A stretch of DNA of 64,000 nucleotides. Source: Saccharopolyspora gloriosae (GTDB lineage: Bacteria > Actinomycetota > Actinomycetes > Mycobacteriales > Pseudonocardiaceae). Positions 6,476 to 63,120 of the stretch are shown one piece after another. The position numbers and the translations under genes are program-made. Each line of letters begins with the position of its first letter. Positions within the stretch are counted from its first letter, which is position 1. The notes below the pieces were generated by a model. It ran no database searches and had not been told where the DNA came from. It was given only the letters and a program-made list of their open reading frames with translations. The stretch spans positions 1,798,001 to 1,862,000 of the forward strand of contig NZ_CP059557.1 in NCBI RefSeq assembly GCF_022828475.1, given 5' to 3'.

Positions 6476-6612
6476 CGTCAGCGCATAGCCCACGTCGAAA
6501 AGCCGACCACCCGCGGGTTCTCAGTTGGTCTCTCGTGAGGACAGCTTTTTCCCTCGTGGCGGAGCCACTTGGGAAAAAGATCCCGCAGCGAGAGACCAAC
6601 TGAGGTTCCGCC
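6476..6612 (-). repeat. Dispersed palindromic element, copy A
   Basis: The outer inverted repeat is 16 bp and perfect (CTCAGTTGGTCTCTCG at 6520-6535, its complement at 6589-6604). Inside is a nested TTTTTCCC/GGGAAAAA pair around a GTGGC-GGA-GCCAC stem. In reverse orientation the core lines up with copies B and D (GGGATCTT, CCACGAGGGAAAAAG, TCCTC). The arm sequence differs from the other copies, yet both arms changed together, so pairing is kept. It lies between convergent genes, where it could also act as a terminator. Confidence 0.8.
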
Positions 6613-6648
6613 ACCCGACCACCAAACCAAAACGAGCCGTGGAAGCCC

Positions 6649-8025
6649 CTACCGGCGCACTGCGCGGGGAGCTATCACCCCATCTATGCCCAGGGCGAGT
6701 TCCTCGGCGCAGTCGCTCCAGGGGTGGCGGGAGTCGGCGAGGGTCGCGCAGCGTTCTCGGAGGCCGGCGAGCCTGCCGCGCAGGCGGGCGCTGCGCACGC
6801 CGCCCGCGAGCAGCACCGCGCGGCGGCCGTGGCGGACCGCGGCGCCGTGGTCGCCGAGCGCGAACTTCGCCTCCGCCAGGCTCGCGAGCTCGAACACCGC
6901 GGAACGCACCTCACCCGGTGCGCGCGCTGCGACGGCGCGGGACAGGTGCAGTGCGGCGGATTCGTACTCGCCCATCGCGAGCTGTATCGAACCGGTCATG
7001 CCCAGCAGATCCGCGTCCCCGAACCAGCGGAACAGCGGGTAGTCGGAGTCGATCCGCGCCGCGCCGTGCAGGCCGCGGCCGTTGTCGAGCAGGCGGCGCA
7101 CCGAGTCGCCGCGCTCGCCCTGCGCGGCGGCCCACGCGGAATTGAGCTGCAGCACCGAACTCACCAGCGGCGACGATTCGGCCCGGATCGACCCGAGCTG
7201 GAACAACTTCAACGCCGAGTTCGCGTCGCCGAAGTGCAGCTCGGCGCGGCCGGCGGCGTACAGGGTCCGGGCGATCGCCAGCGGATCGCCGCCGTCGCGG
7301 CCGAAGTCCAGTGCCCGCCCGAAGTGCTCGTGTCCGCTGGCGAGCAGCCCGTTCTCCACGGCGGTCCAGCCCGCGGTGGCGTGCAACTTGCACAGGGTCG
7401 CCAGCAGTTGGGAGCGGACGGCCTCGGTCATCGAGGAGTCCAGCATCAGCTCGGCCTGCCTGCTCGCGGCGGCGATCGTGCCGTACTGCCCGACGCCGCC
7501 GTAGCGGTGATCGATCCTGCGCAGCGAGCCGATCAGCTCGCCCAGCGCGGCCAGGTCCGCCGCGCCGACCCGGCCGGGCGCGGTGCGCGGGACGTCGAAC
7601 TCGCGCATCTCGGCGGACAGCAGGTGGGCGGAGTCGGCGAGTTCCGTGCGGGCGCCGAGCACCAGGGAACCGGCGTAGGACAGGAACCTGCGGCGCTTGG
7701 CGGCCTCGTCCTCCTCGCGCGGCGGGACGTCGGCGCCGGGCTGCTCGGTGGTCGCGGGCGGTGCCTCGCCTGCCATGCCCATCCAGCCGCGCGGGATGCC
7801 GAGACCGGTCGCGATCCGGGACAGCAGCGCGTAGCTGCGCACCGCGCGGCCGTTGAGCACATCGCTGACCTCGCTCTGCGCTTGCCCGGTGAGCTGGGCG
7901 ATGCGGCTCTGCGAGACGCCGTGCGCGCGCAATGCCCGGTAGACGGTGCCGATGTCGCGCATCGCGAGGGCGTCGCGGACCTCCGCGCGCCGCCAGACCT
8001 CCGGCGGGATGTCCTCAGTTGACAC
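6649..8025 (-). CDS. XRE-family regulator with TPR-like C-terminal region
   Basis: The 458-aa protein has an N-terminal Cro/C1-type helix-turn-helix at about residues 37-60 (VSQSRIAQLTGQAQSEVSDVL). A long Ala/Leu-rich helical region follows that looks like tetratricopeptide repeats, for example an HFGRALDFG stretch and a final EYESAALHLSRAV segment. This layout is common in actinomycete regulators that sense peptides or small signals, but the ligand and targets are unknown. The start is GTG at 8025 with no good ribosome site. A TATGGT -10-like hexamer ends six bases before it, so a leaderless transcript is possible. An 8-bp palindrome overlaps the start and suggests autoregulation. Confidence 0.85.
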   Translation of the reverse strand: MSTEDIPPEVWRRAEVRDALAMRDIGTVYRALRAHGVSQSRIAQLTGQAQSEVSDVLNGRAVRSYALLSRIATGLGIPRGWMGMAGEAPPATTEQPGADVPPREEDEAAKRRRFLSYAGSLVLGARTELADSAHLLSAEMREFDVPRTAPGRVGAADLAALGELIGSLRRIDHRYGGVGQYGTIAAASRQAELMLDSSMTEAVRSQLLATLCKLHATAGWTAVENGLLASGHEHFGRALDFGRDGGDPLAIARTLYAAGRAELHFGDANSALKLFQLGSIRAESSPLVSSVLQLNSAWAAAQGERGDSVRRLLDNGRGLHGAARIDSDYPLFRWFGDADLLGMTGSIQLAMGEYESAALHLSRAVAARAPGEVRSAVFELASLAEAKFALGDHGAAVRHGRRAVLLAGGVRSARLRGRLAGLRERCATLADSRHPWSDCAEELALGIDGVIAPRAVRR

Positions 8026-8060
8026 TCGGCCACCATATACTGAATGTGATCAACTGAATG
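8015..8060. promoter_or_regulatory. Operator-like palindrome and direct repeat over the XRE gene start
   Basis: TCAGTTGA (8015-8022) and TCAACTGA (8050-8057) form a perfect 8-bp inverted repeat that spans the GTG of the XRE gene. ACTGAATG is also repeated directly at 8039-8046 and 8053-8060. The segment is AT-rich for this genome and sits in the short divergent gap between the XRE and DeoR genes, so it may control one or both. Confidence 0.5.
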
Positions 8061-8229
8061 CGGAGAGTGAAAAGATCACCGGATCGGATCTCCGCCGCCT
8101 CGCAACCCATGGGCGGCCCCGCGGATGCCAACCAAAGCAACAAGAAACCACATTTGAGCATTGTGCCCGCCTGCTCGGCGCCGGTAACCTCCGCCGGACC
8201 GGTGATCTCACAGCGGGAGCGAAGCGGGC

Positions 8230-8991
8230 ATGTACGCCGAGGAACGGCATTGGGCGATCTTGGAGCTCGCGCGCAAGGAAGGCCGGGTCGATGTCGCCTC
8301 GCTCGCGTCCCACTTCGACATGACCACCGAGACCGTGCGCCGCGACCTCACCGTGCTGGAGCGCCGTGGCGTGCTGCGCAGGGTGCACGGCGGCGCGATT
8401 CCGGTGGAGCGGCTGGGTTTCGAGCCGAACGTGCCCGCCAGGGACTCGGTGATGACCGCCGAGAAGAACCGCATCGCGAAGGCGGCGCTGGACCTCGTAC
8501 CGGATGAGGGCGCCGTCCTGCTCGACGCGGGCACCACGGTGGCCCGGATGGCGAACATCCTGCCCACGGACCGGGAACTGACCGTGGTCACGCACTCGCC
8601 GACGACGGCGCTGACGCTCTCCGGACGCGGCAACCTCACGTTGATGCTCATCGGCGGCAGGCTGCGCGGGCGCACGCTGGCGGCGGTGGACGGCTGGGCG
8701 CTGCACGCGCTCAGCGACATCTACGTGGACGTCGCGTTCATGGCCACCAACGGGCTGTCCCTGGAACGCGGGCTCACCACACCGGATTCGGCGGAGTCGA
8801 TGGTGAAGCGGGCGGCGATCTCGGCGGCCCGGCGCACCATCGTGCTGGCCGATCACACCAAGGTCGGAAATGATCATTTCGCGCGGTTCGGCGAGCTCGC
8901 CGACGTCGACACGTTCGTCACCGACGACGGCCTGGACGAGCAGGTCGCCGACGAGATCCGGCGCGCAGGCCCGCGCGTCGAGATGGTCTGA
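8230..8991 (+). CDS. DeoR/GlpR-family sugar-responsive repressor
   Basis: This 253-aa regulator has a DeoR winged helix-turn-helix at about residues 18-55 (VASLASHFDMTTETVRRDL, then RRVHGGA). A DeoR sensor domain with the usual phosphosugar-binding segments follows (LLDAGTT, GGRLRG, FMATNGLS, ADHTKVG). Such proteins typically sit beside fruK-fruA or other PTS operons and are relieved by a sugar phosphate. Here the likely target, the PfkB/PTS operon at 19077-23160, is about 10 kb away because four regulator genes lie between. The ATG is preceded by GCGGGAG. The assignment to that operon is inference from family habit and proximity. Confidence 0.9.
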   Translation: MYAEERHWAILELARKEGRVDVASLASHFDMTTETVRRDLTVLERRGVLRRVHGGAIPVERLGFEPNVPARDSVMTAEKNRIAKAALDLVPDEGAVLLDAGTTVARMANILPTDRELTVVTHSPTTALTLSGRGNLTLMLIGGRLRGRTLAAVDGWALHALSDIYVDVAFMATNGLSLERGLTTPDSAESMVKRAAISAARRTIVLADHTKVGNDHFARFGELADVDTFVTDDGLDEQVADEIRRAGPRVEMV

Positions 8992-9068
8992 GCCGGTGCG
9001 CGACGACGACATGTGCCGCGCGAGCACGGAAGTTCGTTCGTCCTGGGGCGGATCGGAAGGAGCCCCGC

Positions 9069-11881: not shown

Positions 11882-11996
11882 TCAATCGGCTGCCGGCGGG
11901 TTCTTCGGGAGACGAGGCCGGGCTTGTGCCTTTCCCTGAATCGATCGCGGGCGGCAAGATCGTCCCCGATGTCCTCTCATGTGGGAATCACTTTGC

Positions 11997-23235: not shown

Positions 23236-25878
23236 GTGCTGCGGGAACGGGAGAGCGAGACCGCGCTGCTGTGCGAGTCCCTCGAGCAGGCGCGGCACGG
23301 CAGCGGTGGTCTGCTGGTGTTCTCCGGCCCGTTCGGCATCGGACGCTCGGCGCTGCTGGCGGCGGCCGCGGCGGTCGCGCGGGAGCAGGGCGTGCGGGTG
23401 CTGCGAGCGGTCGCCACCATCGCGGAACGCGACATCCCGTTCGGCGTGCTGACGCAATTCTCCTGCTGCACCGCCGAATCCGAAGTGGGGCAGGACTTCG
23501 CCACGATGCGCGCCGGACTGCTCACCTCCGGTGAGCCGGCGCTGCTGCTCGTCGACGATCTGCAGTGCGCCGACGTGGAGTCGCTGCGCTGGATCGACCG
23601 GTTGTGCGGCTCGGTGGCGGACTCGCGGGTGCTGGTGGTCGCCGCGCACCGCAGCGGGCAGGCCGCCACCGACCCGGAGACCTTCGCGCGAGTGCTCGGC
23701 CGCGCCGCGCGCCGCCGCGAGCTGCCCGCGCTGAGCGCCGAAGGGACGGGAGCGGTCGTGCGGGACGTGTTCGGCGTGTCCGGCGATGCCGGGTTCGTCG
23801 CCGCCTGCCACCGGATGTCGCACGGCAGGCCGCTGCTGCTCCAGGCCATCGCGTGCGGATTGCGGGACAGCGGCAAACGTTGCGCGGAGTCCGATGTGGA
23901 CTCCGCGTGGTCGGTGCGGCCGTCGGTGGTGGCCGAGCGGGCGGGCGCGGTGCTCAGCGCGCAGCCCGAACCGGTGCTGGCCACCGCGCGGGCGGTGGCC
24001 CTGCTCGACGCCGCGAACCCGGACCGGATCGCCGAACTGGCCGAGCTCGACTCCGACGAGTGCGCGGCCACCATCGGCACGCTCGTCGAACTGGGCGTGC
24101 TCACCGATTCCGAACGGCCCCGCTTCGCGCACCCGGTGATCAGCGGTGCGGTGGAAGGCGGGCTGGCCCCCGCGGACCTGAGCGAGTGGCACCGCAGGGC
24201 GGCTCGGCTGCTGCAGACCGACCAGCGGCCCGTGGAGATCGTGGCCGAACACCTGCTGGCCTCGGACGCGTCCCAGGGCGAGTGGACCACCGGCGTGCTG
24301 CACGCCGCCGGACGGCGCGCACTGGACCGGGGCGACGTGCCCGCGGCGATCCGCTGCCTGCGGCGCGCGCTGCTGGCCTGCCCGACGGCGGGCGCCGAAC
24401 GTTCCGTGCTGCTGGCCGACTTGGCGGAAGCGGAACGATCCAGCGCGCCGGTCGCCGCGATGCGCCACCTCTCGCAGGCGCTGCCGAAGTTCGCCTCGTC
24501 CGAGCAGCGCGCGGCGGCGCTGGCGGAAGTGCCGCCGATGCTGCTGGCGGTGGCGCCGCCGTCGATGCTCGCCGCGTTCGAGCAGTACCGCGCGCACGAG
24601 GAACTGGAACCGGCCGTGGCACTGGCCATCGACACCCGGGTGCGCGCGGCCCGGTTCGACGATCCCGGCTGGTGCGCGGACACCCGAGAACGATTCGACG
24701 CGCTCAACCCGGACGACGAGGTGGCTCCGGAGCGGGTCGCGGTGCTGCTCTACGCGGCCACCCTCACCGGGTCCGATGTGGACGCGGTGCTGCCGTGGGC
24801 GCGGCGGGCGCTCGCCTGCGGCGCTGAACCGGGACAGGCGCTCGGCGCCGTTGTGCTCGCGGCGCGCGCACTGGCGCTGGCCGACGAGGTCGGCGACGCC
24901 GTGCAGTGGACGACCGAGCTGACGTCCGCACTGGCAGGACACGGCGAGCGCGCCGCGGAACGCCTCGTCATCGACTCCGAACGGGCCGCAGCCCTGGTCC
25001 GGTCCTGCCGGTACGCGGAAGCGGTGGCGTTGGCGGAGAGCACGCTGCGCCGCTGCGACCCGGCGCTGGTGTCGGTGGTGTCCCGGTGCTTCGAGACGCT
25101 GGCGACGGTGGTGCTGGATTCCGCGGACACCGGTGCGGCGGCGCGGGTGCTGGCCCGGCACCGGGATTGGGATCAGGCGGTGCCGGTGTGGGTGCGGGAA
25201 CTGAGCGACGCCGCGCTGGCGGTGGGCGTGCAGGACACCGGCGCGGCGCTGGAGCACCTGCTCGAATGCGGGCGCGAACGGGAACGGCTGGGCTGGTCCA
25301 ACCCGTGCCAGCTGCCGTGGCGCAGCTGGGCGGCACTGCTCTACCACCGCGTGCAGCGCGCGGAACCCGCCGCGGAACTGATCGCCGAGGAATACCGGCG
25401 GGCGGTGGCCTGGGGTGCTCCCAGCGGCGTCGGCCGCGCGCTGCGCGTGTGGGGCGCGGTCACCGACGGGGACGCGGGCGTGGAACTGCTCCGCCGGGCC
25501 ATCGAGGTGCTGCACGGCGCCGCCTGCACGTTGGAGCTGGCGAAGGCGCACTTGATGCTGGGGCGCAGGCTGCTCGGTTCGGACCGGCTCGAAGCGGGCG
25601 CGCAGCTGCACGCGGGCGATGAGCTGGCGGCGTCCTGCGGGGTGCCGAGGCTGCGCTCGAAGGACGAGATCGCGGGCGAGGGCGGCGGGGCGCAAGCCGA
25701 GCTCACCCGCGCGGAACTGCGCATCGCCCGGCTGGTGGCCGGCGGTCTGGGGAACCAGCAGATCGCCACGGAGCTGGGCGTGAGCTCCCGTGCGGTGGAG
25801 AAGCACCTGACGAAGGTCTACCGCAAGCTCGGCGTAGCGGGCCGCTCAGGCCTGGCCGAGGCACTCGACCTGGGCTGA
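23236..25878 (+). CDS. LAL-family LuxR regulator 4
   Basis: The 880-aa regulator has Walker A GPFGIGRS (Arg for Lys), Walker B ALLLVDDLQC, a long helical middle and a complete C-terminal LuxR helix-turn-helix (LGNQQIATELGVSSRAVEKH, then KVYRKLGVAGRSGLAEAL). GTG 23236 follows GGGAGGAG by about nine bases. It lies 75 bases after the dehydrogenase with only a weak hairpin between, so it may be read through from the sugar operon. By family and position next to the thioesterase and PKS genes it is a likely polyene activator. Confidence 0.9.
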   Translation: MLRERESETALLCESLEQARHGSGGLLVFSGPFGIGRSALLAAAAAVAREQGVRVLRAVATIAERDIPFGVLTQFSCCTAESEVGQDFATMRAGLLTSGEPALLLVDDLQCADVESLRWIDRLCGSVADSRVLVVAAHRSGQAATDPETFARVLGRAARRRELPALSAEGTGAVVRDVFGVSGDAGFVAACHRMSHGRPLLLQAIACGLRDSGKRCAESDVDSAWSVRPSVVAERAGAVLSAQPEPVLATARAVALLDAANPDRIAELAELDSDECAATIGTLVELGVLTDSERPRFAHPVISGAVEGGLAPADLSEWHRRAARLLQTDQRPVEIVAEHLLASDASQGEWTTGVLHAAGRRALDRGDVPAAIRCLRRALLACPTAGAERSVLLADLAEAERSSAPVAAMRHLSQALPKFASSEQRAAALAEVPPMLLAVAPPSMLAAFEQYRAHEELEPAVALAIDTRVRAARFDDPGWCADTRERFDALNPDDEVAPERVAVLLYAATLTGSDVDAVLPWARRALACGAEPGQALGAVVLAARALALADEVGDAVQWTTELTSALAGHGERAAERLVIDSERAAALVRSCRYAEAVALAESTLRRCDPALVSVVSRCFETLATVVLDSADTGAAARVLARHRDWDQAVPVWVRELSDAALAVGVQDTGAALEHLLECGRERERLGWSNPCQLPWRSWAALLYHRVQRAEPAAELIAEEYRRAVAWGAPSGVGRALRVWGAVTDGDAGVELLRRAIEVLHGAACTLELAKAHLMLGRRLLGSDRLEAGAQLHAGDELAASCGVPRLRSKDEIAGEGGGAQAELTRAELRIARLVAGGLGNQQIATELGVSSRAVEKHLTKVYRKLGVAGRSGLAEALDLG

Positions 25879-25912
25879 TGTCCTCGGAACGGCCTGCTCG
25901 TGTGTCCGGGTT

Positions 25913-26066
25913 GCGGAACCTCAGCGGCTTCCTCGCTGCGGGATCTTCTCCCGAGTGGCGCTCCGCCACGAGGGAAAAAGCCGTCCTCGCGAGGAAGCCG
26001 CTGAGGACCTGCCGGTGGTCCTCATGCTTGGGTGGTCGCTGCTCATCGGCTTCGCCGCTGACAGGA
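25913..26066 (+). repeat. Dispersed palindromic element, copy B
   Basis: Perfect 16-bp arms CTCAGCGGCTTCCTCG (25920-25935) and complement (25990-26005) enclose a GTGGCG-CTC-CGCCAC hairpin and AGGGAAAAAG. A conserved tail follows (CCGGTGG, later CTGCTCATCGGCTTCGCCG and CTGACAGGAC). It starts about 35 bases after the LAL4 stop in the 374-base gap before the thioesterase 3' end. Confidence 0.85.
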
Positions 26067-26132
26067 CGACAGGCAATGCCGGAAGATCAATTCAGCGGGC
26101 TTCGGCTCTCCCGGCTCGTCCTATCCGATTGA

Positions 26133-27404: not shown

Positions 27405-28439
27405 ATGTCCAGGCGAGCGCTGATCACCGGGATCACCGGGCAGGACGGCTCCTATCTGGCCGAGCACCTGCTCGCCCAGGGATACCAGGTGTGGGGCCTG
27501 ATCCGCGGCCAGGCGAACCCCCGCAAGTCCCGCGTCAGCAGGCTGGCCGCCGATCTGTCCTTCGTGGACGGTGACCTGATGGATCAGGGAAGTCTCGTCT
27601 CGGCGGTGGATTTGGTTCAGCCGCACGAGGTCTACAACCTGGGCGCCATCTCGTTCGTGCCGATGTCCTGGCAGCAGGCGGAACTGGTCACCGAGGTCAA
27701 CGGCATGGGCGTGCTGCGCATGCTGGAGGCGATCCGCATCGTCAGCGGCCTGCACGGTTCCAGCGGCGCCGCGGGATCGGACGGCATCCGGTTCTACCAG
27801 GCGTCGTCCTCGGAGATGTTCGGCAAGGTCGCCGAAACGCCGCAGAGCGAGACCACCACGTTCCACCCGCGCAGCCCGTACGGCGTCGCCAAGACCTACG
27901 GGCACTACATCACGCAGAACTACCGGGAGTCCTACGGCGTGTGGGGCGTGTCGGGAATCCTGTTCAACCACGAATCTCCGCGTCGTGGCGCGGAATTCGT
28001 CACGCGCAAGATCTCGCTGGCCGTCGCGCAGATCAAGCTCGGACTTCAGGACAAGTTGTACCTGGGGAACCTGGACGCGGTGCGGGACTGGGGTTTCGCC
28101 GGCGACTACGTGCGCGCGATGCACCTGATGCTGCAACAGGACCGGCCCGCGGACTACGTCGTGGGGACCGGGCGCATGCACTCGGTGCGGGAGGCGGTGC
28201 GGATCGCGTTCGAGGCGGCCGACTTGAACTGGGAGGACTACGTCGCGATCGATCCGACGCTGGTGCGCCCGGCGGAGGTGGAGACGTTGTGCGCGGACTC
28301 CTCGCACGCCCGCCGCGAACTCGGCTGGGTGCCCGCGGTCGATTTCACCGAGCTGATGACGATGATGGTCGAGTCCGACATCCGCCAGGCCTCCCGCGAA
28401 CGCGACTACGCGGAAGTGCTCTCGGCTTCCAGCTGGTAG
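27405..28439 (+). CDS. gmd: GDP-mannose 4,6-dehydratase (mycosamine pathway)
   Basis: The 344-aa short-chain dehydrogenase-fold enzyme converts GDP-mannose to GDP-4-keto-6-deoxymannose. The NADP loop is GITGQDGS (residues 9-16) and the active-site YxxxK is Y159/K163 (SPYGVAKTYGHY). SSSEMFGKV and LFNHESPRRG are specific to GMD. The ATG has a GGAAGGGG site. In nystatin, amphotericin and pimaricin clusters the orthologue (NysDIII, AmphDIII, PimJ) opens the D-mycosamine pathway and sits beside the hexamodular PKS gene, exactly as here. A role in cell-surface sugars is possible but less likely. Confidence 0.95.
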   Translation: MSRRALITGITGQDGSYLAEHLLAQGYQVWGLIRGQANPRKSRVSRLAADLSFVDGDLMDQGSLVSAVDLVQPHEVYNLGAISFVPMSWQQAELVTEVNGMGVLRMLEAIRIVSGLHGSSGAAGSDGIRFYQASSSEMFGKVAETPQSETTTFHPRSPYGVAKTYGHYITQNYRESYGVWGVSGILFNHESPRRGAEFVTRKISLAVAQIKLGLQDKLYLGNLDAVRDWGFAGDYVRAMHLMLQQDRPADYVVGTGRMHSVREAVRIAFEAADLNWEDYVAIDPTLVRPAEVETLCADSSHARRELGWVPAVDFTELMTMMVESDIRQASRERDYAEVLSASSW

Positions 28440-28472
28440 TGGAGTTCCCGGCGCATGTCGTCGTTCGTTCTG

Positions 28473-28631
28473 TGTCCTGTCAGCGGTGAAGCCGCTGATC
28501 GGTGACCAGCTTGAGCAAGCCGGCCACCGGTGGTTCTCAGCGGCTTCCTCGCGATGACGGCGATTTCGCCCGTGGCGCGGGGCCGCTCGCGAAATCGATC
28601 TTGCAGCGAGGAAGCCGCTGAGCTTCCGCCA
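28473..28631 (-). repeat. Dispersed palindromic element, copy C
   Basis: Perfect 16-bp arms (28536-28551 and 28607-28622) have the same sequence as copy B, in reverse orientation. The conserved GTCCTGTCAGCGGTGAAGCC tail is now at the left end and CCACCGGTGG lies next to the left arm. The inner core has diverged to CGATTTCG..CGAAATCG but still pairs. It fills most of the 345-base gap between gmd and the giant PKS gene. Confidence 0.85.
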
Positions 28632-28664
28632 TCCCGGACACCGACGCAGGTCATTCCGGGCGGA

Positions 28665-28784: not shown

Positions 28785-31700
28785 ATGGACAACGAACAGA
28801 AGCTCCGGGACTACCTTAAGCGCGCGAGCGCCGACCTGAAGCGGTCCCGCGCTCGGGTGCAGGAGCTGGAGGACGCGGCCCGCGAACCCATCGCCATCGT
28901 CGGCATGAGCTGTCGCTATCCCGGTGGCGTCGCCGGTCCGGAGGACCTGTGGCGGATGGTCGCCGAGGGACGCGACGGCATCTCCGGTTTCCCGGCCGAC
29001 CGCGGCTGGGAGCTCGACGAGCTGGACACCTCCACCCGGTCCGGCGGATTCCTGCACGACGCGGGCGAATTCGACGCGGACTTCTTCGGCATCTCCCCGC
29101 GCGAGGCGCTGGCGATGGACCCGCAGCAGCGAGTGCTGCTGGAGGCCACCTGGGAGGCATTCGAGCGCGCGGGCGTCGACCCGGCTTCGGTCCGGGGCAG
29201 TCGCACCGGCGTGTTCATGGGCGCCATGGCGCAGGACTACCGCGTCGGCCCGGCCGACGATGTCGAGGGCTTCCAGCTCACCGGCAACAGCGGCAGCGTC
29301 CTGTCCGGCCGGATCTCCTACACCTTCGGCGCCGTCGGCCCGGCCGTCACCGTCGACACGGCCTGCTCGTCCTCGTTGGTGGCGCTGCACTTGGCCGCGC
29401 ATTCGCTGCGTTCCGGGGAGTGCTCGCTGGCGTTGGCGGGCGGGGTCACCGTCATGTCCAGCCCGGCGACGTTCCTGGAATTCTCCCGCCAGGGCGGGCT
29501 TTCGACGGACGGACGTTGCCGCTCCTTCGCCGAGTCGGCCGCGGGCACCGGTTGGGCCGAAGGCGCCGGCGTGCTGGTGCTGGAACGCCTGTCCGACGCC
29601 CGGCGCAACGGGCACGAGGTGCTGGCGGTGGTGCGCGGCAGCGCGGTGAACCAGGACGGCGCGTCGAACGGCCTGACCGCGCCGAACGGTCCTTCGCAGC
29701 AGCGCGTGATTCAGCAGGCGCTGGTGAACGCACGCCTCGCACCGTCCGAAGTGGACGTGGTCGAGGCGCACGGCACCGGTACCGTGCTCGGCGATCCGGT
29801 CGAGGCGCAGGCGCTGCTGGCCACCTACGGCAAGGACCGCGAGCAGCCGTTGTGGCTGGGTTCGGTGAAGTCCAACATCAGCCACACGCAGGCCGCCGCC
29901 GGTGTCGCGGGCGTCATCAAGATGGTGCTGGCGATGCGGCACGGGCTGCTGCCGAAGACGCTGCACGTGGACGAGCCGTCCTCGCACGTGGACTGGAATT
30001 CCGGGTCGGTGCGGCTGCTCACCGAGCACACGCCGTGGCCGGAGGCGCAGCGGCCGCGCCGCGCCGGCATCTCCTCGTTCGGTATCAGCGGCACCAACGC
30101 GCACACGATCATCGAGCAGGCTCCCGAGCAGGAACCGGCGGCGGAGCCGGTGGTGCCCGCCGGTGCCGTGCCGATCGCGTTGTCGGCCAGAACCGGCGAA
30201 GCACTGCGGGAACAGGCCGCACGACTGCTGTCCTCACTGGACTCCGCTGAGCATGAGCCGCTGGACGTGGCGCTGTCGGCGGCCACCCGTTCCGGCCTGG
30301 AGCATCGGGCGATCGTCACCGCCGCTGATCGCGACGAGCTGCGCGCGGGGCTGCGCGCGCTGACCGAGGACGCCGAACCGGCCGGAGTCGTCCGTGGTTC
30401 GGCCCGGTCGGCGGGCAAGCTGGCGTTCCTGTTCACCGGCCAGGGCGCGCAACGCCTCGGCATGGGGCAGGAGCTGCACGCCCGCTTCCCGGTGTTCGCC
30501 GAGGCCCTGGACGCGGTGCTCGCCGAGCTCGACGTTCACCTGGACCGCCCGCTGCGGGAGGTGCTGTTCGCCGAACCGGACACCGCCGAGGCCGCACTGC
30601 TGGACGAGACCGGCTACGCGCAGCCCGCGCTGTTCGCGATCGAGGTCGCGCTGTTCCGCCTCACCGAATCCTGGGGACTGCGACCCGATCACTTGGCGGG
30701 CCACTCCATCGGTGAGATCACCGCCGCGCACGTGGCCGGGGTGTTCTCGCTCGCCGACGCGTGCGCGCTGGTGTGCGCGCGGGGCCGCCTGATGCAGGCG
30801 TTGCCGCGCGGCGGCGCGATGATCTCCTTGCAGGCCACCGAGTCCGAGGTCGCGCCGCTGCTGACCGAGCGGGTGTCGCTGGCGGCGATCAACGGACCGG
30901 AGTCCGTCGTGATCTCCGGTGCCGACCACGAGGCGACGGCGATCGGCGAGCACTTCGAGCAGCTGGGCCGCAAGGCGAAGCGGCTCACGGTGAGCCACGC
31001 CTTCCACTCGCCGCTGATGGATCCGATGCTCGACGAGTTCCGCGCCGTGGTGGCCGCACTGGCACCGCGGGAACCGCTGCTGCCCATCGTGTCCACGGTG
31101 ACCGGCGAACCCGCCACCGTGCAGGAGCTGACCTCCGCCGAGCACTGGGTGGAGCACGTGCGCCGTCCCGTGCGGTTCGGCGACGCCGTGCGCAGGCTCG
31201 GCGAACACGGCGTGGGCTCGTTCCTGGAGCTGGGACCGGACGGGGTGCTCAGCGCCATGGTCCCCGGCAACCTCAACGCCCGGCCGGACGCCGTGATCAG
31301 CCCGTTGCTGCGCGGGAACCGGCCGGAGGTCGCGGCGGTCACCCGGGCGCTCGCCGAGCTGTACGTGCACGGCACCGCACCGGATTGGCCGGAGTTCTTC
31401 GCCGCCACCGGGGCGCGGCGGGTGCAGCTGCCCACCTACGCCTTCCAGCGGCGCCGGTTCTGGCCGAAGGGACCGCGCGCCGACGGCGACGTCCGCTCCG
31501 CCGGGCTCGGCGCGGCGCACCACCCGCTGCTGGCGGCGGCGGTGGCGCTGGCGAACTCGGACGGCGTGCTGCTCACCGGCAGGCTCTCGGTGCGTTCGCA
31601 CCCGTGGCTGGCCGAACACGCCGTCGGCGGCACGATCCTGTTGCCCGGCACCGCTTTCGTCGAACTCGCGTTGCGCGCCGGGGACGAGACGGGCTGCGAC

Positions 31701-34700: not shown

Positions 34701-37700
34701 GCCGACGGAGTCGGCTGGGCCGAGGGCGTCGGAATGCTGGTGCTGGAGCGGCTTTCGGACGCTCGGCGCAACGGGCACGAGGTGCTGGCGGTGGTGCGCG
34801 GCAGCGCGGTGAACCAGGACGGCGCGTCGAACGGCCTGACCGCGCCGAACGGTCCTTCGCAGCAGCGCGTGATCCGGCAGGCGCTCGCCGCCGCCGATCT
34901 GTCCACTTCGGACGTCGATGTCGTGGAGGCGCACGGCACCGGCACCTCGCTGGGCGACCCGATCGAGGCGCAGGCGCTGGTCGCCACTTACGGGCAGGAG
35001 CGGGAGAATCCGCTGCTGCTGGGCGCGATCAAGTCCAACATCGGCCACACCCAGGCCGCCGCGGGCGTCGCCGGTGTGATCAAAATGGTGCAGGCGATGC
35101 GGCACGGCGTGCTGCCCCGCACCCTGCACGCCGACACACCGTCCGGGCACGTGGACTGGGACTCGGGCGCGGTCGAACTGCTGACCGCCGAGACCTCCTG
35201 GCCGGAGTCCGATCACCCGCGTCGCGCCGGGGTGTCGTCGTTCGGCATCAGCGGCACCAACGCGCACCTGATCCTGGAACAGCCGGAACCCGTCGAGTCG
35301 CCCGAGCGTCCGGCCCGGCCGGAGTCCGTGGTGGCCTGGCCGCTGGCCGCGAAGACGCGCGCCGCCCTGCGTTCGCAGGCCGCGCGCCTGGTGTCCGCGC
35401 TGGAGGCCGACCCCGAACGCGACCCGCGCGACGTCGGGTTCTCCCTGGCCACGACCCGCACCGGATTCGAGCAGCGCGCCGCCGTGCTCGGCTCGGACCG
35501 GGCGAGCCTGCTGTCCGCGCTGCGGTCGCTGGCGGCCGACCGGCCCGATCCCGCCGTGGTGTCGGGGGAGACCGGCGAAGCGGGCAAGCCCGCGGTGTTG
35601 TTCACCGGCCAGGGCAGCCAGCGCCCCGGAATGGGAGCCGAGCTCTACGCCCGGTATCCCGTGTTCGCGACCGCGCTGGACGCGGTGCTCGCGCACTTCG
35701 ACGCGGATTTCGACCGCCCGGTGCGGGACGTGCTGTTCGCGGCGCCCGACACTGCCGAAGCCGCCCTGCTGGACGACACCGGCTACGCGCAGCCCGCGCT
35801 GTTCGCGCTGGAAGTGGCGCTGTACCGGCTCGTCGAGTCGCACGGCGCGGTGCCCGCGCAGCTCGCCGGGCACTCCATCGGTGAGCTCGTCGCCGCGCAC
35901 GTCGCGGGTGTGCTGTCGCTGCCCGACGCGTGCGCGCTGGTGTCCGCGCGCGCCCGGCTGATGCGGGCGTTGCCCGCCGGTGGCGCCATGATCGCCGTGC
36001 GGGCCACCGAGGACGAGGTCGCGCCGCTGCTGACCGAGCGGGTGTCGATCGCGGCGGTGAACGGGCCGAACGCGCTCGTGCTCTCCGGTGCCGAGGACGA
36101 GGTCGCCGCGCTCGCGGACCGCTTCGCGGATCGCAAGACCAAGCGACTCACCGTGAGCCACGCGTTCCACTCCCCGCTGATGGAACCGATGCTCGCCGAG
36201 TTCCGCGAGGTCGCGGCCGGGCTCACCTACCACGCCCCGGCGATCCCGCTGGTGTCGAACGTGACCGGCGCGTTCGCCGGTGACGAGGTGCGCACGCCCG
36301 AGTACTGGGTCGGGCACGTCCGCGCCACCGTCCGGTTCGCCGACGGCGTGCGCGCCATGGCCGACGCGGGCGCCCGCACCTTCCTGGAGCTCGGCCCGGA
36401 CGGGGTGCTCAGCGCGATGGCGCAGGACGTCCTCGGCGACGAGGCCGAGCCGGTGCCCGCGCTGCGCGCCGACCGCGCCGAGGAACTTTCCGTGACGACG
36501 GCGCTGGCGAGGCTGCACGTGCGCGGCGTGCCGGTGGACTGGGCCGCGGTGTACCCGGACGCGCGGCGCGTGGACCTGCCCACCTACGCCTTCCAACGCG
36601 AGCGGTATTGGCCGGAGACCACCGTCGTCGCGCCCGTCGGCGACCCGGCGGACGAGCGGCTGTGGGCGGCGGTGGATCGCGGCGCCGCCGACGAGCTCGT
36701 CGAGCTGCTGGGCCTGGAGGACTCCCAGCACGCCTCGCTGTACGCGTTGCTGCCGGCACTGGCCTCGTGGCGCCAGGGCAGGCACGAGAAGGCGCTGCTG
36801 GATTCGTGGCGTTACCGGGTGGACTGGCGTCCGCTGAGCACGCCCGCGCCCGCCGTGCTGAGCGGCACCTGGCTGCTGGTGAGCACCACCGAGACGGCGT
36901 CCGACGACGTGGCGGAAGCGGTGCGGGCGCACGGCGCGCAGGTTCGTGAACTGGTGCTCGACGCCGACTGCGCGGATCGGGAGGTGCTGGCGGCGCGGCT
37001 CGGCGCGGCGGAGGGCATCGCCGGTGTGGTGTCGCTGCTGGCCGCCGACGAGCGGCCCAGCGGTGCGCTCACCACCGGTCTCGCGCTGAACGCCGCTGTG
37101 GTGCGGGCACTGGGTGATCTCGGCCTCGACGCTCCACTGTGGATGATCACCAGGGGTGCGGTGTCCACCGGTGCGGACGATCCGGTCGCACACCCGGCGC
37201 AGGCCGCCACCTGGGGACTCGGCCGCGTGGTCGCGCTGGAGCACTCCCGGCGCTGGGGCGGGCTCGCCGACCTGCCCGAGGCGCTGGATCGGCAAGCCGC
37301 CACCCGGTTGGCCTGCGCTTTCGCCGGAATCGGCGATGAGGACCAGGTGGCCGTGCGCGCCTCCGGGGTCTTCGGGCGCAGGTTGCTGCACCACCCGATC
37401 GCGGAGCCCGCGGGCGAGTTCGCGCCGTCCGGGACGGTGCTCATCACCGGCGGCACCGGCGCCCTCGGCGCCGAGATCGCCCGCTCGCTGGCGGAAGCCG
37501 GGGCGGACCGGCTGGTGCTCACCAGCCGCCGCGGCCCGGACGCGCCAGGAGCCGCCGAACTCGCCGACGGGCTCCGCGAACTGGGCGCCGAAGTGCACCT
37601 GGCCGCCTGCGACGTCGCCGACCGCGACTCCCTCGCCGCACTGCTCGCCGACATCCCCGACGAGCAGCCGCTGACCGGCGTGGTGCACGCGGCGGGCATC

Positions 37701-43700: not shown

Positions 43701-46700
43701 GTCCACGCCGAGCGCGTTCATCGGTTTCAGCCGCCAGCGCGCGATGGCCGTCGACGGTCGCTGCAAGGCGTACTCCGAGGCCGCCGACGGCATGAGCCTC
43801 GCCGAGGGAATCGGCTTGGTGCTGGTGGAACGCTTGTCCGACGCCCGCCGCAACGGGCATCCGGTGCTGGCTGTGGTGCGCGGTTCGGCGATCAACCAGG
43901 ACGGTGCTTCCAACGGGCTGACCGCGCCGAACGGGCCGTCGCAGCAGCGCGTCATCCGCGCCGCGCTGGCCAACGCGGGCGTCGCGCCCGCCGAGGTCGA
44001 CGTGCTGGAGGGCCACGGCACCGGTACCGCGCTGGGCGACCCGATCGAGGCGCAGGCGCTGCTGGCGACCTACGGGCAGGAGCGGGCGAATCCGCTGCTG
44101 CTGGGGTCGATCAAGTCCAACATCGGCCACACCCAGATGGCCTCCGGCGTGGCCAGCGTGATCAAGATGGTGCAGGCGCTGCGGCACGGCACCGTCCCGC
44201 GAACGCTGCACGTCGACGAGCCGTCCTCGCACGTGGACTGGGCGTCAGGCGCGATCGAGCTGCTGGGCGAGCAGGTTCCGTGGCCCGAGTCGGACCGGCC
44301 GCGCCGCGCCGCGGTGTCCTCGTTCGGGCTCAGCGGCACCAACGCGCACACCATCCTCGAACAGGCCCCGCCGGTCGAGGAACCGGCGCACACGCCGGAG
44401 GCGGGCATCGTGCCCGCAGTCCTGTCCGGCCGCAGCGAGTCCGCGCTGCGTGCGCAGGCCGCACGGCTGCTGTCCCATGTGGACGAGAACGAGTTCGCGC
44501 TGCCCGATCTCGCGTTCTCCCTCGCCGACGGACGCGGCCGGTTCGAGCACCGGGCGGCGGTGATCGCCGAGGACCCGGCGGAGCTGCGGCGCGGCCTGAC
44601 GGCGCTGCGCGACGGCAACCCCGCCGGGAACCTGGTGCGCGGCAAGGCGTCCGGAGACCTGCGCACCGCGTTCCTGTTCACCGGTCAGGGCAGCCAGCGC
44701 CCCGGCATGGGCCGGGAGCTCTACGCCCGGTTCCCCGTGTTCGCCGACGCGCTCGACGCGGTGCTGGCGCACCTGGACGCCGAGCTCGACACCCCGCTGC
44801 GCGAGGTCCTGTTCGCCGAACCGGACACCGCCGAGGCCGCCCTGCTCGACACCACCGCCTACACCCAGCCCGCGTTGTTCGCGCTGGAAGTGGCGCTGTT
44901 CCGGCTCGTCGAATCGTGGGGGCAGCGCCCGGACTACCTGGCCGGGCACTCCATCGGGGAGCTCGCCGCCGCGCACGTCGCCGGGGTGTTGTCGCTGCCC
45001 GACGCGTGCGCGCTCGTGGCCGCCCGGGGCCGCCTGATGCAGGCGTTGCCCGAAGGCGGCGCCATGATCTCGGTGCAGGCCACCGAGCACGAGGTCACGC
45101 CGCTGCTGACCGGGCGGGTGTCGCTCGCCGCGATCAACGGGCCGGAGTCCGTGGTCGTCTCCGGCGATGCGGACGAGGCGACCGCGATCGCCGAGCACTT
45201 CGAGCAGTTGGGCCGCAAGGCGAAGCGGCTCACGGTGAGCCACGCGTTCCACTCGCCGCTGATGGATCCGATGCTCGACGAGTTCCGCCGAGTGGCCGAC
45301 GGCATCACCTTCCACTACCCGGCCATCCCCATCGTGTCCACTTTGACCGGTGAGCTCGCCACCGCCGAGCAGCTCGGCAGCGCCGACTACTGGGTCGCGC
45401 ACGTGCGCGGCGCGGTGCGCTTCGCCGACGGTGCCCGGTGGCTGGCCGAGGCCGGCGTGCGCACGTTCCTCGAACTCGGGCCGGACGGCGTGCTCTCCGG
45501 CATGGCGCGCGAGTCCGTCACCGAGGACGCGGTGCTGCAGCCCGCGCTGCGCCGGGACCGCGACGACACCGAGGCGATCACCACTGCGCTGGCTCGTCTG
45601 CACGTCACGGGGCTGCGGGTCGACTGGAACGGCTACTTCGCCGACACCGGCGCCCGGCGGGTGGACCTGCCGACGTACGCCTTCCAGCACAAGCGGTTCT
45701 GGCCCGAACCCGCCGCCGAGCAGGTGGCGGCCGACCCGGTGGACGCCGAGTTCTGGTCCGCCGTGGACCGCGCCGACACCGACGCGCTGAGCTCCACGCT
45801 GGACCTGGACGGCGACACCGTGCAGGCGATGGTGCCCGCGCTGTCGGCGTGGCGCCGCAAGCGCCACGAGTCCGCCACCGTCGATTCCTGGCGGTACCGC
45901 ACCGCCTGGCGCCCCGTGCGCCCCGAGCACTCCGCGCCCGCCGGGCCGTGGCTGGTGTTGACCCCGCAGGGTTGCGAGGCCGAACCCACCGCCCGAGTGC
46001 TGGCCGCGCTGGGCGCGGACGCGGTGCGGGTCGAGGTGCATCGCGCCGACCGCGCCGAGCTGGCGTGGCGGCTGCGCACCGAGGCCGCCGATGCCGGATT
46101 CCCGGAAAGCGGGGCCGGATTCGCCGGAGTGGTCTCGCTGCTCGCCTGGGACTCCGAAGCGCACGAATCGGACGTGCCCGCCGGGCTGCTGCTGACCGCG
46201 ACCGCCGTGCAGGCGCTCGCGGACGCCGAAATCGATGCTCCATTGTGGACCATCACGAGCGGCGCGGTCTCCGTCGGCCGTTCCGAGGCGGGCGCCGACC
46301 CGGCGCAGGCCGCGCTGTGGGGCTTCGGCCGCGTCGTCGCGCTGGAACGGCCCGCCCGCTGGGGCGGCCTGATCGACGTCGACGGCGACGCCTTCGACCG
46401 GCTCCCCACCGTCCTCGGCGGCACCGAGGACCAAGTGGCCCTGCGCCGATCGGGAGTGTTCGCGCGCCGCCTGGTGCCCGCGCCCATCGCCGCCGAGGAC
46501 GAGAAACCGTTCACCACCAACGGAACCGTGCTCATCACCGGCGGCACCGGTGCTCTCGGCGGTCAGGTCGCGCGGCTGTTCGCGCGGGCCGGTGCCGAGC
46601 ACCTGGTGCTGTTGAGCCGACGCGGCCTGGAAGCGCCCGGCGCGGCGGAGCTGCGCGCGGAACTCGCCGGACACGGCGCGCGGGTCACCATCGCGGCCTG

Positions 46701-52700: not shown

Positions 52701-55700
52701 GGCGCACGGCACCGGGACCTCGCTGGGCGACCCGATCGAGGCGCAGGCGCTGCTGGCGACCTACGGGCGGGAGCGGGAGCACCCGCTGCTGCTGGGGTCG
52801 GTGAAGTCCAACATCGGCCACAGCCAGTCCGCCTCCGGCGTCGCCGGGGTGATCAAGACGGTGCTGGCGATGCGGCACGGCACGCTGCCGCGAACGCTGC
52901 ACGTGGACCGGCCGTCCACGCACGTCGACTGGTCGGCGGGAGCGGTGGAACTGCTCACCGAAACGACGGAGTGGCCCGGCACCGGCCGCCCGCGCCGTGC
53001 GGCCGTGTCGTCGTTCGGCGCCAGCGGCACCAACGCGCACGTGGTACTCGAACAGGCTCCCGCCGTCGAACGCGGCCCGGAGCCGTCCGAACCGGTGTCC
53101 GCGCTGCCCGTGGTGCTCTCCGGCCGCACGCCGGAAGCGTTGCGGGCACAGGCGAAACGCCTCGCCGACACCGACGCCGACCTTACCGACCTGGCGTTCT
53201 CGCTGGCCACCACTCGCTCGCATTTCGAGCACCGGGCCGCGGTGCTCGCCGCGGACCGCGCCGAGCTGCTCGCCGGGCTCACCGCGCTCGCCGACGGCGG
53301 GGGAGTGGGCAACCTGGTGCGGGGTACCGCGGCGAAGCCGGGCAAGCTGGCACTGCTGTTCTCCGGGCAGGGCAGCCAGCGCGCCGGGATGGGCCGGGAG
53401 CTGCACGCCCGGTTCCCGGTGTTCGCGACCGCTCTGGACGAGGTGCTGGCGCACTTCGACCTCGAACTGGACCGGCCGCTGCGGGAGGTCATGTTCGCCG
53501 AACCGGGCACGCCCGAAGCGGCGCTGCTCGACGAGACCGGTTGCACCCAGCCCGCGCTGTTCGCCTTCGAAGTCGCGCTGTTCCGCCTCGTGGAATCCTG
53601 GGGCGTGCGGCCGGACTTCCTCACCGGGCACTCCATCGGCGAGCTCGCCGCCGCGCACGTGGCGGGCGTGTTCTCGCTGCCGGACGCGGTGAAGCTCGTC
53701 GCGGCACGGGCGAGCCTGATGCAGGCACTGCCCTCGGGCGGCGCGATGATCTCGGTGCAGGCCACCGAGAACGAGGTCACGCCGCTGCTGACCGACCGCG
53801 TCTCGCTCGCCGCCATCAACGGCCCGGACTCCGTGGTGCTCGCCGGTGACGAGGACGGCGTGCGGGACGTCGCGGACCGGTTCGCGGCGGACGGCCGCAA
53901 GACTAGGCGTTTGCGGGTCAGCCATGCGTTTCACTCACCCCTGATGGACGCCATGCTGGAGGACTTCGGCCGCATCGCCAGGGACGTCGACTACGACGCC
54001 CCGGCGATCCCCGTCGTGTCCAACCTGACCGGCGAGCTCGCCACCGCCGAGCAGCTGTGCGACCCCGCCTACTGGGTGGATCACGTGCGCCACGCCGTGC
54101 GGTTCGCCGACGGGGTGCGCACCCTCGACGGCCGGGGCGTCCGGACGTACTGCGAAATCGGCCCGGACGCGGTGCTGTCCGCGCTGGTCACGGGCACGCT
54201 GAACGACGCGGAAGTCGTTCCAGCGCAACGCAAGGACCGCGCCGAGGCGGACGCGCTCGTCACGGCCGTCGCCCGGCTGCACGTCACCGGGAAGTCGCCG
54301 CGCTGGGCGGACTTCTTCGACGGCACCGGTGCCCGCCGGATCGACCTGCCGACCTACGCGTTCCAGCACGACCGGTTCTGGCCGGAACCCGAGGCGCCCG
54401 CGGCGGGCGTCGCGGCGGCACGGGACGAGGAGTTCTGGAACGCCGTGGCGGACGCCGACTTCGACTCGCTGGCCGACACGTTGAACGTGCCCGGCGAGGC
54501 CCTGTCGGAGGTGCTGCCCGCGCTGTCCGGCTGGCGCAGGCAGCACCAGGACCAGGCCACTGTGGACTCCTGGCGGCACCGCTTCGGCTGGAAGCCGCTC
54601 ACCGGGGTTTCCGCGCGGCCGTCGGGAACCTGGCTCGCCGTGCTGCCCGAAGGCGGCGGTCGGTGGTCGGACGAACTGCTCGACTCGCTCGGCGACGTGA
54701 CCCGCGTCGAGCTCGCGGGAGCGGACCGGGCCGGCTGGGCCGAGCGGTTGCGGGGACACGTGGTCACCGGTGTCGTCTCACTGCTCGCGACCACCGACAC
54801 CGGCAACACCGTGCCCGACGGGCCGGGACTGACCGCGACCCTGTTGCAAGCGCTCGGTGACGCGGGAATCGACGCACCACTGTGGACGGTCACCTGCGGT
54901 GCCGTCGCCACCGGTGGCTCCGAGGCGCCCGCCAACCCCGCGCAGGCGGGTGTGTGGGGACTCGGCCGGGTCGCCGCGCTCGAATACCCGGCCCGCTGGG
55001 GCGGCCTGATCGACCTGCCCGCCGAGCTCGACGAGGCGGTGACCACCCGGTTCGGCGCCGTGCTCGCCGGACACGACGGCGAGGACCAGGTCGCGGTGCG
55101 TTCCGGTGCCGCGTTCGGACGGCGGCTGCTGCCCGCGCCGGAACGGCCCGCGAAGCAGTGGGAACCGACCGGCACGGTGCTGATCACCGGTGGCACCGGC
55201 GCCCTGGGCGCGCAGGTAGCGCGCCGTCTCGCCGAAACCGGCGCGCGGCACCTGGTGCTGCTCAGCCGCAGCGGAATCGACGCGCCCGGCGCCAAGGAAC
55301 TGCGCGACGACCTCGCCGAACTCGGTGCCGGCACGGCGATCGAGGCCTGCGACGTCGCCGACCGCGCGGCGCTCGAAGCGGTGCTCGCCGACATCCCCGC
55401 CGAGCACCCGCTGACCGGTGTGGTGCACGCGGCGGGCGTGCTCGACGACGGCGTGCTCGACGGGCTCACCCCCGACCGGTTCACCGCCGTGCTGCGCACC
55501 AAGGTGACGGCCGCGCTGCTGCTCGACGAACTCACCCGCGAACACGAGCCTGCTGCGTTCGTGCTGTTCTCCTCGGCCTCGGCCGCGGTGGGCAACGCCG
55601 GTCAGGCCAACTACGCGGCGGCGAACGCGGTGCTCGACGCACTCGCCGAGCAACGCCACGCCCACGGCCTGCCCGCGACCTCCATCGCCTGGGGCGCGTG

Positions 55701-56463: not shown

Positions 56464-56474
56464 CGGAGTTGATG

Positions 56475-62400: not shown

Positions 62401-62915
62401 ACCGGCTCGCCGGGATGGGTGGTGCGGAACGCGAGCAGACGCTGGTGCGGCTGGTCCGGGACGCCTCCGCGACGGTGCTCGGCCACGGCTCGGCCGACGC
62501 GATCGGTGCGGAACGCGAGTTCCGCCAGATCGGCTTCGACTCGCTCACCGCCGTCGAGCTGCGCAACCGGCTGACAGCGGCGACGGGCGTCCGGCTGCCC
62601 TCCACGCTGATCTTCGACCACCCGACGCCGCTGGCCGTGGCCCGGCTGCTGGCTGAGGACTTCGGCGGCTCGGACGGCCCGGACGGTGCGGCGCTGCTCG
62701 CCGAGCTGGACCGCGTCGAACACGCCCTCGCAGCTGAGGACACCTCCGCCGAGGTCCGCGACGAGCTCACCGGGCGGCTGCGCGGCCTGCTGGATCGCTA
62801 CGGCACGGCCCACGAGGCCACCGGCGAGCCCGCCGTGGGTGACCGCATTCAGGACGCCACCGCCGACGACCTGCTCACCTTCATCGACAACGAACTCGGC
62901 AGGCGCACTACTTAG
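56475..62915 (+). CDS. Single-module type I PKS: KS-AT-DH-ER-KR-ACP
   Basis: The 2,146-aa synthase carries out one fully reducing extension. An N-terminal docking coiled coil ([20 protein letters not shown]) is followed by KS (Cys near 57115), AT (GHSIG near 58451, HAFH near 58748: malonyl), DH ([20 protein letters not shown]), ER (about 60700-61590, NADPH loop [13 protein letters not shown]), KR ([16 protein letters not shown]-type) and ACP (IGFDSL). All domains look active, so the product is a methylene. This corresponds to module 15 of nystatin, which is part of the trimodular NysJ; here it is a separate protein. ATG 56475 has CGGAG six bases upstream and starts 11 bases after the PKS1 stop. 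The frame is open further upstream, but that overlaps PKS1 in another frame. Confidence 0.93.
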
Positions 62916-62952
62916 GAGTCTTTCGCAATGGTTCGCGCAGCGGGTCGCTCAG

Positions 62953-63120
62953 CGGAACCTCAGGGGCTTCCTCGCCGCGCCCCTGGCCGGTGCAGCGGTT
63001 CTTTCCCGAGTGGCTCCGCCATCAGGGAAAAAGCCGTCCTCGCGAGGAAGCCGCTGAGAACCCGCCGGTGATCGAGCTGCCCGAGTAGGGCACTGCTCAT
63101 CGGCTGCGTCGCTGACAAGA
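62953..63120 (+). repeat. Dispersed palindromic element, copy D
   Basis: Arms CTCAGGGGCTTCCTCG (62959-62974) and CGAGGAAGCCGCTGAG (63043-63058) pair with one mismatch. The core AGTGGCTCCGCCATCAGGG and the tail CTGCTCATCGGC..GCTGACAAGAC match copy B. It lies in the 286-base gap between two PKS genes that would normally be co-transcribed, an unusual site for a long hairpin. Confidence 0.85.

Follow-up and report, generated by a model that had tools for sequence, protein, structure and literature searches.

The stretch of DNA studied here, referred to as the window, comprises 64,000 nucleotides of the Saccharopolyspora gloriosae genome (contig NZ_CP059557.1, positions 1,798,001 to 1,862,000) and contains 4 copies, A to D, of a palindromic repeat that belongs to a large family of such elements (Table 1). 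An initial annotation of the window had proposed the 4 copies and placed them in both orientations and solely between genes. Matches to a covariance model (R1), built from 33 copies, confirmed each of them, and all 4 lie between called genes, with both orientations represented. The S. gloriosae genome (6.88 Mb in one contig), from which the window was taken, is here called G000, and its relatives G001 to G005.

Table 1. Copies of the palindromic repeat and their parts, in window coordinates
Feature	Position	Strand	Description
Copy A	6460..6622	-	Core and start of tail; R1, 151.9 bits; sense, behind gene 6649-8025 (-), stop TAG at 6649-6651
Copy A arm	6520..6535	-	CTCAGTTGGTCTCTCG, read on the plus strand; variable block TTGGTCT
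Copy A partner arm	6589..6604	-	CGAGAGACCAACTGAG, read on the plus strand
Copy A type II tail	~6339..6500	-	Array of small CGGCTTCGCCG-like hairpins; limits approximate, set by reading of the letters
Copy B	25902..26072	+	Type I element; R1, 180 bits; sense, behind LuxR-type gene 23236-25878 (+), stop TGA
Copy B arm	25920..25935	+	CTCAGCGGCTTCCTCG
Copy B partner arm	25990..26005	+	CGAGGAAGCCGCTGAG
Copy B second hairpin	26044..26061	+	CATCGGCTTCGCCGCTGA, then CAGGAC; hairpin conserved at alignment columns 175-188
Copy C	28469..28640	-	Type I element; R1, 156.1 bits; antisense, behind gene 27405-28439 (+); codirectional-antisense class
Copy C arm	28536..28551	-	CTCAGCGGCTTCCTCG, read on the plus strand
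Copy C partner arm	28607..28622	-	CGAGGAAGCCGCTGAG, read on the plus strand
Copy D	62941..63126	+	Type I element; ~15-bp insertion after left arm; R1, 138.9 bits; sense, behind reading frame ending at 62915, stop TAG
Copy D arm	62959..62974	+	CTCAGGGGCTTCCTCG; one mismatch to partner
Copy D partner arm	63043..63058	+	CGAGGAAGCCGCTGAG

Read in one orientation, the core of the element has the layout GCGG-AAC-CTCAG-(7-nt block)-CTCGC-TGC-GGGATC-(inner stem)-GCTGTCC-TC-GCGAG-(block complement)-CTGAG-AAC-CCGC. The arms of copy A were said to have changed jointly, and this is what we observed: CTCAGTTGGTCTCTCG is matched by a perfect complement in this copy, as is CTCAGCGGCTTCCTCG in copies B and C. 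The pairing is thus perfect in copies A to C but not in copy D, in which the left arm, CTCAGGGGCTTCCTCG, is mismatched at one position. Other details of the annotation held for some of the copies. The GCTGACAGGAC tail is missing from copy A; the inner hairpin with GGGAAAAAG reads GCGAAATCG in copy C; and the CCGGTGG box is exact in copies B and C only, while copy D ends in GCTGACAAGAC. We distinguish between 2 types of tails: type I, a second hairpin of the form CATCGGCTTCGCCGCTGACARGAC, was found in copies B, C, and D, and type II, which consists of GACGTGGGCTATGCGC and following letters plus an array of mini-hairpins of the CGGCTTCGCCG type, was found in copy A. With up to 3 mismatches allowed, the arm motif was identified 12 times in the window, as compared to an expected number of 1.93, and 12 was reached in none of 100 shuffles.

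Copy number and taxonomic range

A search of the genome and its relatives with covariance models, as the annotation had suggested, yielded many further copies. All of the 150 places scored in G000 matched R1, which means that this genome contains at least 150 copies, and a scan of the G000 contigs gave at least 120 stretches among the matches listed. In 1.664 Mb of G000, corresponding to four 400-kb stretches and the window, we counted about 105 copies. Because each palindrome also matches the opposite strand, the 181 matches were condensed manually into 107 rows (32, 32, 32, and 7 in the 400-kb stretches and 4 in the window), and the number of copies is given as about 105 because the boundary between stretches L250 and L251 cuts through one copy and a further row is a weak match of 29 bits. 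The thin stretch, at 2.82 to 3.22 Mb (L241 to L260), contained about 5 copies in its 7 rows.

A second model (R2) was based on 63 sequences from 19 genomes, 17 of which were named. An alignment of 69 of the 73 sequences collected (A3) was reduced to 63 sequences (A4); the E-values of both R1 and R2 are rough. R2 matched all 6 genomes examined in the genus, with at least 150, at least 150, 149, 131, 37, and 32 matches, respectively. Across the bacterial family, matches were obtained in 41 of 150 genomes and in 13 of 46 genera, and across the phylum in 1 of 296 genomes, namely G000 itself; 22 candidates per genome were scored in the family survey and 11 in the phylum survey, both with stricter filters. 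The element, which covers about 170 to 350 bp with its tail included, belongs to one actinobacterial family, the Pseudonocardiaceae as judged from the named members. A copy was also observed in S. spinosa.

Some of the carrier genomes contained just one to three matches. The single match at locus L371 was located directly behind gatB, as identified with Pfam, and that at L372 behind a gene with the same layout. Both genomes belong to one genus, and it is possible that the copy at this site has been vertically kept. Among the named loci compared, the nearest was from Saccharopolyspora sp. NFXS83, with 92-93% identity over 3-8 kb. The named-species set and several of the G000 and G001 copy sets were found with exact patterns in which the outer arm letters were required, so that GCGGAACCTC.G and C.GAG.ACC appear invariant in A3 and A4 partly by construction.

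Placement at gene ends and variation between congeners

The elements are located directly behind stop codons, mostly in the sense orientation, and form the 3' flank of their host genes. After 3 rows below 41 bits had been dropped, 104 copies were available for the analysis of placement, and in no case did the overlap with a called gene exceed 40 bp. Genes were called with our own codon-usage script, and by these approximate counts 52 copies were located between convergent genes, 35 and 13 between codirectional genes in the sense and antisense orientation (p=0.002), and 4 between divergent genes. For comparison, the same DNA contained 123 gaps between convergent genes, 353 between codirectional genes, and 184 between divergent genes, counting those of 150 bp or more.

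A stop codon was located 18 to 48 nt ahead of GCGGAACC in 66 of the 86 sense copies, whereas about 9% would be expected under uniform insertion. The left end of the element was set 33 nt before GCGGAACC, so that this interval corresponds to a left end within 15 nt of the stop codon. In the named species, the stop codon was located at 25 to 60 nt in 39 of 52 copies (median 42.5 nt), with 20 of the 84 copies in this set at contig edges and unclassified. Five other genera contributed 7 loci, of which 6 had the element in sense orientation behind a stop codon and the seventh behind a gene for tRNA-His.

Sequence homology to the left of the element points to the same position. Among copies from the same genome it ended within 10 nt of the stop codon in 39 of the 52 sense copies that were located near a stop. 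For the 15 copies with a more distant stop codon, the homology ended within 22 nt of the stop in 3 and not in 12; by reading, several of these copies come after a terminator-like hairpin and one after a tRNA gene. All 3 kinds of stop codons were found in front of the copies, and the fraction of TGA was similar to that for all genes in G000 (0.92 versus 0.88), G001 (0.93 versus 0.91), and the named species (0.78 versus 0.87). Since the usage of stop codons in front of copies resembles that of the genome, the landmark seems to be the end of the gene rather than the letters TGA, and TGA as an insertion target was not supported.

The flanks of the elements were variable in several respects. Behind many copies we noted tails with arrays of small hairpins with TTC or TTCG loops (CGGCTTCGCCG, CGGCCTTCGGCCG), the length of which differs between species at shared sites. 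Some copies have a longer left part, of which 138 to 171 bp with GGGTTTTAGAGCCTTCCCCGGCTTGGCGTGTGG-like units are shared, as observed in region A of G000 near 126488 and 327026, and in G001 near 187427 and 278308; it looks as though sequence from upstream had moved together with these copies. An alternative left flank, of the CCTCACAAGACACAACAGGTAGCGGAACC type, is common to several copies despite differing cores (L006, L020, and copies in L220, L232, and L251).

The family is present or absent at given sites between congeners, which supports the suggestion in the initial annotation of a non-autonomous mobile element. Over 400 kb, with a nucleotide identity of 89% between G000 and G001, 28 of the 32 G000 sites could be mapped to G001, of which 16 were shared and 12 were without a match. 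Conversely, 28 of 29 G001 sites could be placed in G000, where 17 of them also had an element and 11 lacked a match; in both directions, this refers to the lack of a model match and not to proven emptiness. Presence or absence was checked with a second model at 3 sites that were followed across all 6 genomes. Copy A and a second site (site 2) were matched in G000 alone, and another site (site 1) was matched in G001 and G002 alone, with 3 to 21 nt between the convergent stop codons in the other 4 genomes. Judging from this distribution, gain would be the simpler reading at the 3 sites. The insertion at the site of copy B is older: copies with changed arms were identified in G001 and G003 and an apparent rearranged remnant in G002, and there was no match in G004 and G005. 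It was also noted that 2 of the unmatched sites, corresponding to the G000 copies near 0.607 and 0.702 Mb, contained apparent shortened remnants, and loss therefore occurs too.

The genes in front of the elements differ from other genes in their final codons. The GC content at third codon positions (GC3) of the last five codons was 0.65 in genes followed by an element versus 0.84 at the ends of transcription units in G000, and 0.63 versus 0.88 in G001. The orthologous gene ends were compared at 11 of 23 polymorphic and 20 of 33 shared entries (regions L181 to L200 and L321 to L340). Over the last 20 codons, GC3 at the 11 polymorphic sites was 0.841 in the filled and 0.932 in the unfilled state, being lower with the element at 9 sites and higher at 1, while at shared sites it was low in both genomes (0.745 and 0.760). 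Since the filled ends have lower values and both ends are low at shared sites, the decay of GC3 seems to follow the arrival of the element. AT-rich gene ends as an attractor are not favoured, as the unfilled orthologues are not AT-rich. A convergent gene on the far side of the element showed a milder loss, in codons -6 to -20 and not in the last five.

Turnover of the core and pairing of the arms

To follow the elements at fixed positions, we compared the 16 sites shared between G000 and G001 in the 400-kb region, which represent a single species pair. In this pair, the ends of the element are inherited with the site, whereas the hairpin core of about 95 bp carries no trace of that ancestry. 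The left 45 nt had a similarity of 0.767 at shared sites versus 0.691 in random pairs, a value that was reached in none of 2000 permutations, and the right 110 nt a similarity of 0.685 versus 0.616 (p=0.001). For the 95-nt core the corresponding values were 0.832 and 0.831 (p=0.42), and the 7-nt block was the same at none of the 16 sites, with a block distance of 3.88 versus 3.78 in random pairs. The 2 copies had opposite orientations in 3 of the 16 pairs.

These data are most simply explained if the majority of the shared insertions have been inherited and their hairpins overwritten from other copies. Alternatively, the same gene ends may have been hit repeatedly by independent insertions, such that the shared sites would be re-used targets rather than inherited ones. 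The lack of agreement between arm blocks at all 16 sites and the 3 inverted pairs are what this alternative would predict, but it leaves the similarity of both flanks above that of random pairs to be accounted for, and we consider it improbable.

The arms pair throughout the family. In A4, 92.3% of the cells were paired, as compared to 78.2% in shuffled and 39-47% in slid alignments, and there were 341 double changes versus 112 in shuffles. Among 65 pattern-defined copies in G000, the 7-nt blocks of the two arms were identical in 56 and differed at a single position in 9. The 2 outcomes that the annotation had named as refuting it, a lack of further copies and a failure to keep the arms paired, were thus not observed, although the pattern used for these 65 copies itself required the outer arm letters. 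The most common blocks in G000 were TTGGTCT (15), CTGTCTT (11), TGAGCCT (9), CGGCTTC (8), and CGGCCTT (7), which differ in part from the leading blocks in G001, CGTCCTT (5), CCGGTCT (3), and CGGCTTC (3). In the 400-kb pair, 4 blocks were present in both genomes, 7 in G000 only, and 11 in G001 only.

Covariation of this kind could reflect a cis-acting RNA in the 3' untranslated region, such as a terminator, a substrate for RNase III or an mRNA-stabilising hairpin, with base pairs under selection in the sense RNA and a spread explained by usefulness. Such a function agrees with the sense placement at a narrow range of distances from stop codons, the covariation in the 63 sequences, the abundance of G-U pairs in a basal stem, the tails with TTC or TTCG loops, and the copy behind gatB in 2 genomes of one genus. 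If selection had acted on the sense RNA, G-U mismatches should exceed A-C mismatches in the stems. We examined this in the core stems, excluding the basal stem, and found 25 G-U versus 40 A-C mismatches in distinct contexts across species (p=0.08; raw counts 28 versus 64), and 65 versus 48 within G000 (p=0.13; raw counts 77 versus 54). There was thus no clear excess of G-U on the sense strand, and the test gives no support for sense-RNA selection as the cause of the arm pairing. Furthermore, the cores at shared sites were no more alike than random pairs, which argues against stepwise compensatory evolution. We regard an RNA of this type as a possible but rather unlikely explanation for the family. 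All in all, processes at the level of DNA, or use of both strands, account better for the pairing of the arms. The suggestion in the annotation of a structured RNA family agrees with the strong cross-species covariation and the sense placement behind genes, but finds no clear support in the mismatches of the core stems.

Relationship to known repeats and proposed mode of spread

REP (repetitive extragenic palindromic) sequences and BIMEs (bacterial interspersed mosaic elements) are described as palindromic, high-copy, largely intergenic, and non-autonomous repeats of 20-40 bp with a GTAG or CGTC tag that are tied to RNA hairpins (PMC3733652). The family studied here is likewise palindromic, present in high copy numbers, largely intergenic, and non-autonomous. 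It differs from REP and BIME sequences in its length of 170-350 bp (with a model length of 170), its closely constrained distance from stop codons, and a 7-bp arm block that varies but is matched on the partner arm, and it has no conserved GTAG or CGTC tag: before the hairpin, GGGTAG varies to GGGTGG and CTCAG. The Y1 (REP-associated) transposase domain PF01797 had no match in G000 as compared to matches in 5 of 14 control genomes, and mobilisation by a RAYT (REP-associated tyrosine transposase) or IS200 enzyme was therefore rejected for G000.

A miniature inverted-repeat transposable element (MITE), as proposed in the annotation, would also be small, non-autonomous, flanked by inverted repeats, and present or absent between relatives. 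In a classical version of this explanation, the copies would have been moved by a DDE transposase encoded elsewhere in the genome, and their proximity to stop codons would be due to purifying selection only. Presence and absence among congeners is consistent with this, and clear and long terminal inverted repeats were found in some of the S. rosea and S. hirsuta copies; one shortened G001 copy was flanked on both sides by GGGAAACCTCA, a candidate target duplication, with the other polymorphic sites inspected by eye only. However, terminal inverted repeats exceeded those of 20 shuffles in just 15 of 76 named-species copies (about 4 by chance) and in 0 of 25 G001 copies, and, where such repeats were found, their sequences differed from species to species although the core was shared, the reverse of what is expected for a MITE. 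Uniform insertion would also place far fewer copies near a stop codon than were seen. No parent transposon was found, although no genome-wide search for one was made, and no neighbouring transposase or autonomous gene was obvious in 7 low-copy loci, which were read by gene length with gatB as the only gene identified. A classical MITE therefore appears unlikely to us. What stands of the proposal is the presence/absence polymorphism; in the strict sense of the term, the terminal repeats are inconsistent, a target duplication was not established, and a mobilising enzyme was not found.

The mycobacterial interspersed repetitive unit (MIRU) is a mycobacterial repeat that is reported to insert at start codons and to bring a coupled open reading frame (PMC12548453). 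The family resembles it in being apparently mobile and in settling at gene junctions, but its landmark is the stop codon and it has a large hairpin. The attC sites of integrons are conserved in structure beyond sequence, are located directly behind a gene in a fixed orientation, and have matched variable arms. All of these features are shared by our family, which differs in that its copies are scattered along the chromosome on both strands. The best match to the integron integrase TIGR02249 in G000 scored 79 bits with a cut-off of 265, and since none of the 14 control genomes passed either, the search had no positive control. Integron attC sites were rejected on this basis.

No Rfam family matched the 4 copies at gathering thresholds, and in a search of 4 loci all matches were below threshold. 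The possibility raised in the annotation that the family is undescribed thus holds: it is apparently new with regard to Rfam and the accessible literature that was searched, outside of which subscription journals largely fall. Other RNA matches in the window were a cobalamin riboswitch (4201-4430, minus strand; 91.3 bits), which precedes the called gene 1256-4021 (-), and 4 matches to ASpks RNA (29802-29870, 34965-35033, 44047-44115, and 52738-52806; minus strand). The ASpks matches are antisense to long frames that resemble polyketide synthases, and may merely mirror conserved coding sequence.

Taken together, the family works like REP and MITE repeats. It lacks the defining marks of RAYT-linked REP sequences and does not yet show those of MITEs, and it is set apart from the known repeats of both kinds by its placement at stop codons and its exchanged core. 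We tentatively favour, with a confidence that falls a little short of even, the explanation that it represents a non-autonomous mobile hairpin repeat of gene 3' ends, similar to REP and MITE repeats, with a core that is homogenised by gene conversion.

Palindromes are cut by the SbcCD nuclease, and SbcD is encoded in G000. Being a long inverted repeat, the core could form an extruded hairpin or cruciform that is cut by a nuclease of the SbcCD type, and another of the numerous copies, at an ectopic site, would then serve as the template for repair of the break. Gene conversion in combination with correction of the palindrome within a copy would keep the arms complementary and at the same time swap the arm blocks, and conversion may also account for the loss of GC3 in the adjoining gene ends. 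At the RNA level, the hairpin might act as a transcription end or protect the mRNA, which would make the site behind the stop codon harmless or useful.

Several observations weigh against the explanation by a mobile repeat with a converted core. Gene conversion is deduced from the pattern of similarity, and part of this pattern could be produced by re-insertion at the same gene ends, as indicated by the 3 of 16 pairs with opposite orientation. Neither a transposase, a recombinase nor a target duplication was tied to the family in the Y1 and integrase searches of G000 and in the loci that were read, and its terminal repeats are inconsistent. Part of the presence/absence polymorphism may be due to loss, given the apparent remnants. 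The base preceding the stop codon was T in 13 of 49 cases in G000 versus 7% of all genes, which a pure landmark at the gene end leaves unexplained, and the named-species set showed no loss of GC3 (0.85 versus 0.88), which limits that claim. Finally, the basal stem (A4 columns 15-21 with 134-140) is paired in 91.2% of the cells, largely by G-U, including the basal pair 17-138 with G-U in 52 of 63 sequences, and pair 56-106 is a conserved G-U in 58 of 62; both features fit an RNA. However, the basal stem is also made up of direct repeats (GGCGGTGC or GGTGGTC on either side), and its pairing may therefore be a by-product.

In a bolder reading, which strikes us as unlikely, integration would be directed to the point at which translation or transcription ends, at any stop codon or terminator, rather than to a target sequence, and the hairpin would be continually rewritten at fixed sites with a set of arm blocks specific to each species. 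If true, the shell of such a mobile element would be inherited, while its core could be exchanged.

Apparently compensatory changes in bacterial repeats need not imply selection on RNA, and the tests of the wobble strand and of shared sites help to separate the alternatives. If the interpretation is right, the family offers many natural replicates for measuring gene conversion in palindromes, targeting of gene ends, and local decay of GC content. It would also mean that antibiotic-producing actinomycetes have, at the 3' end of a large number of genes in each genome, a mobile hairpin that could end or protect the transcripts of these genes.

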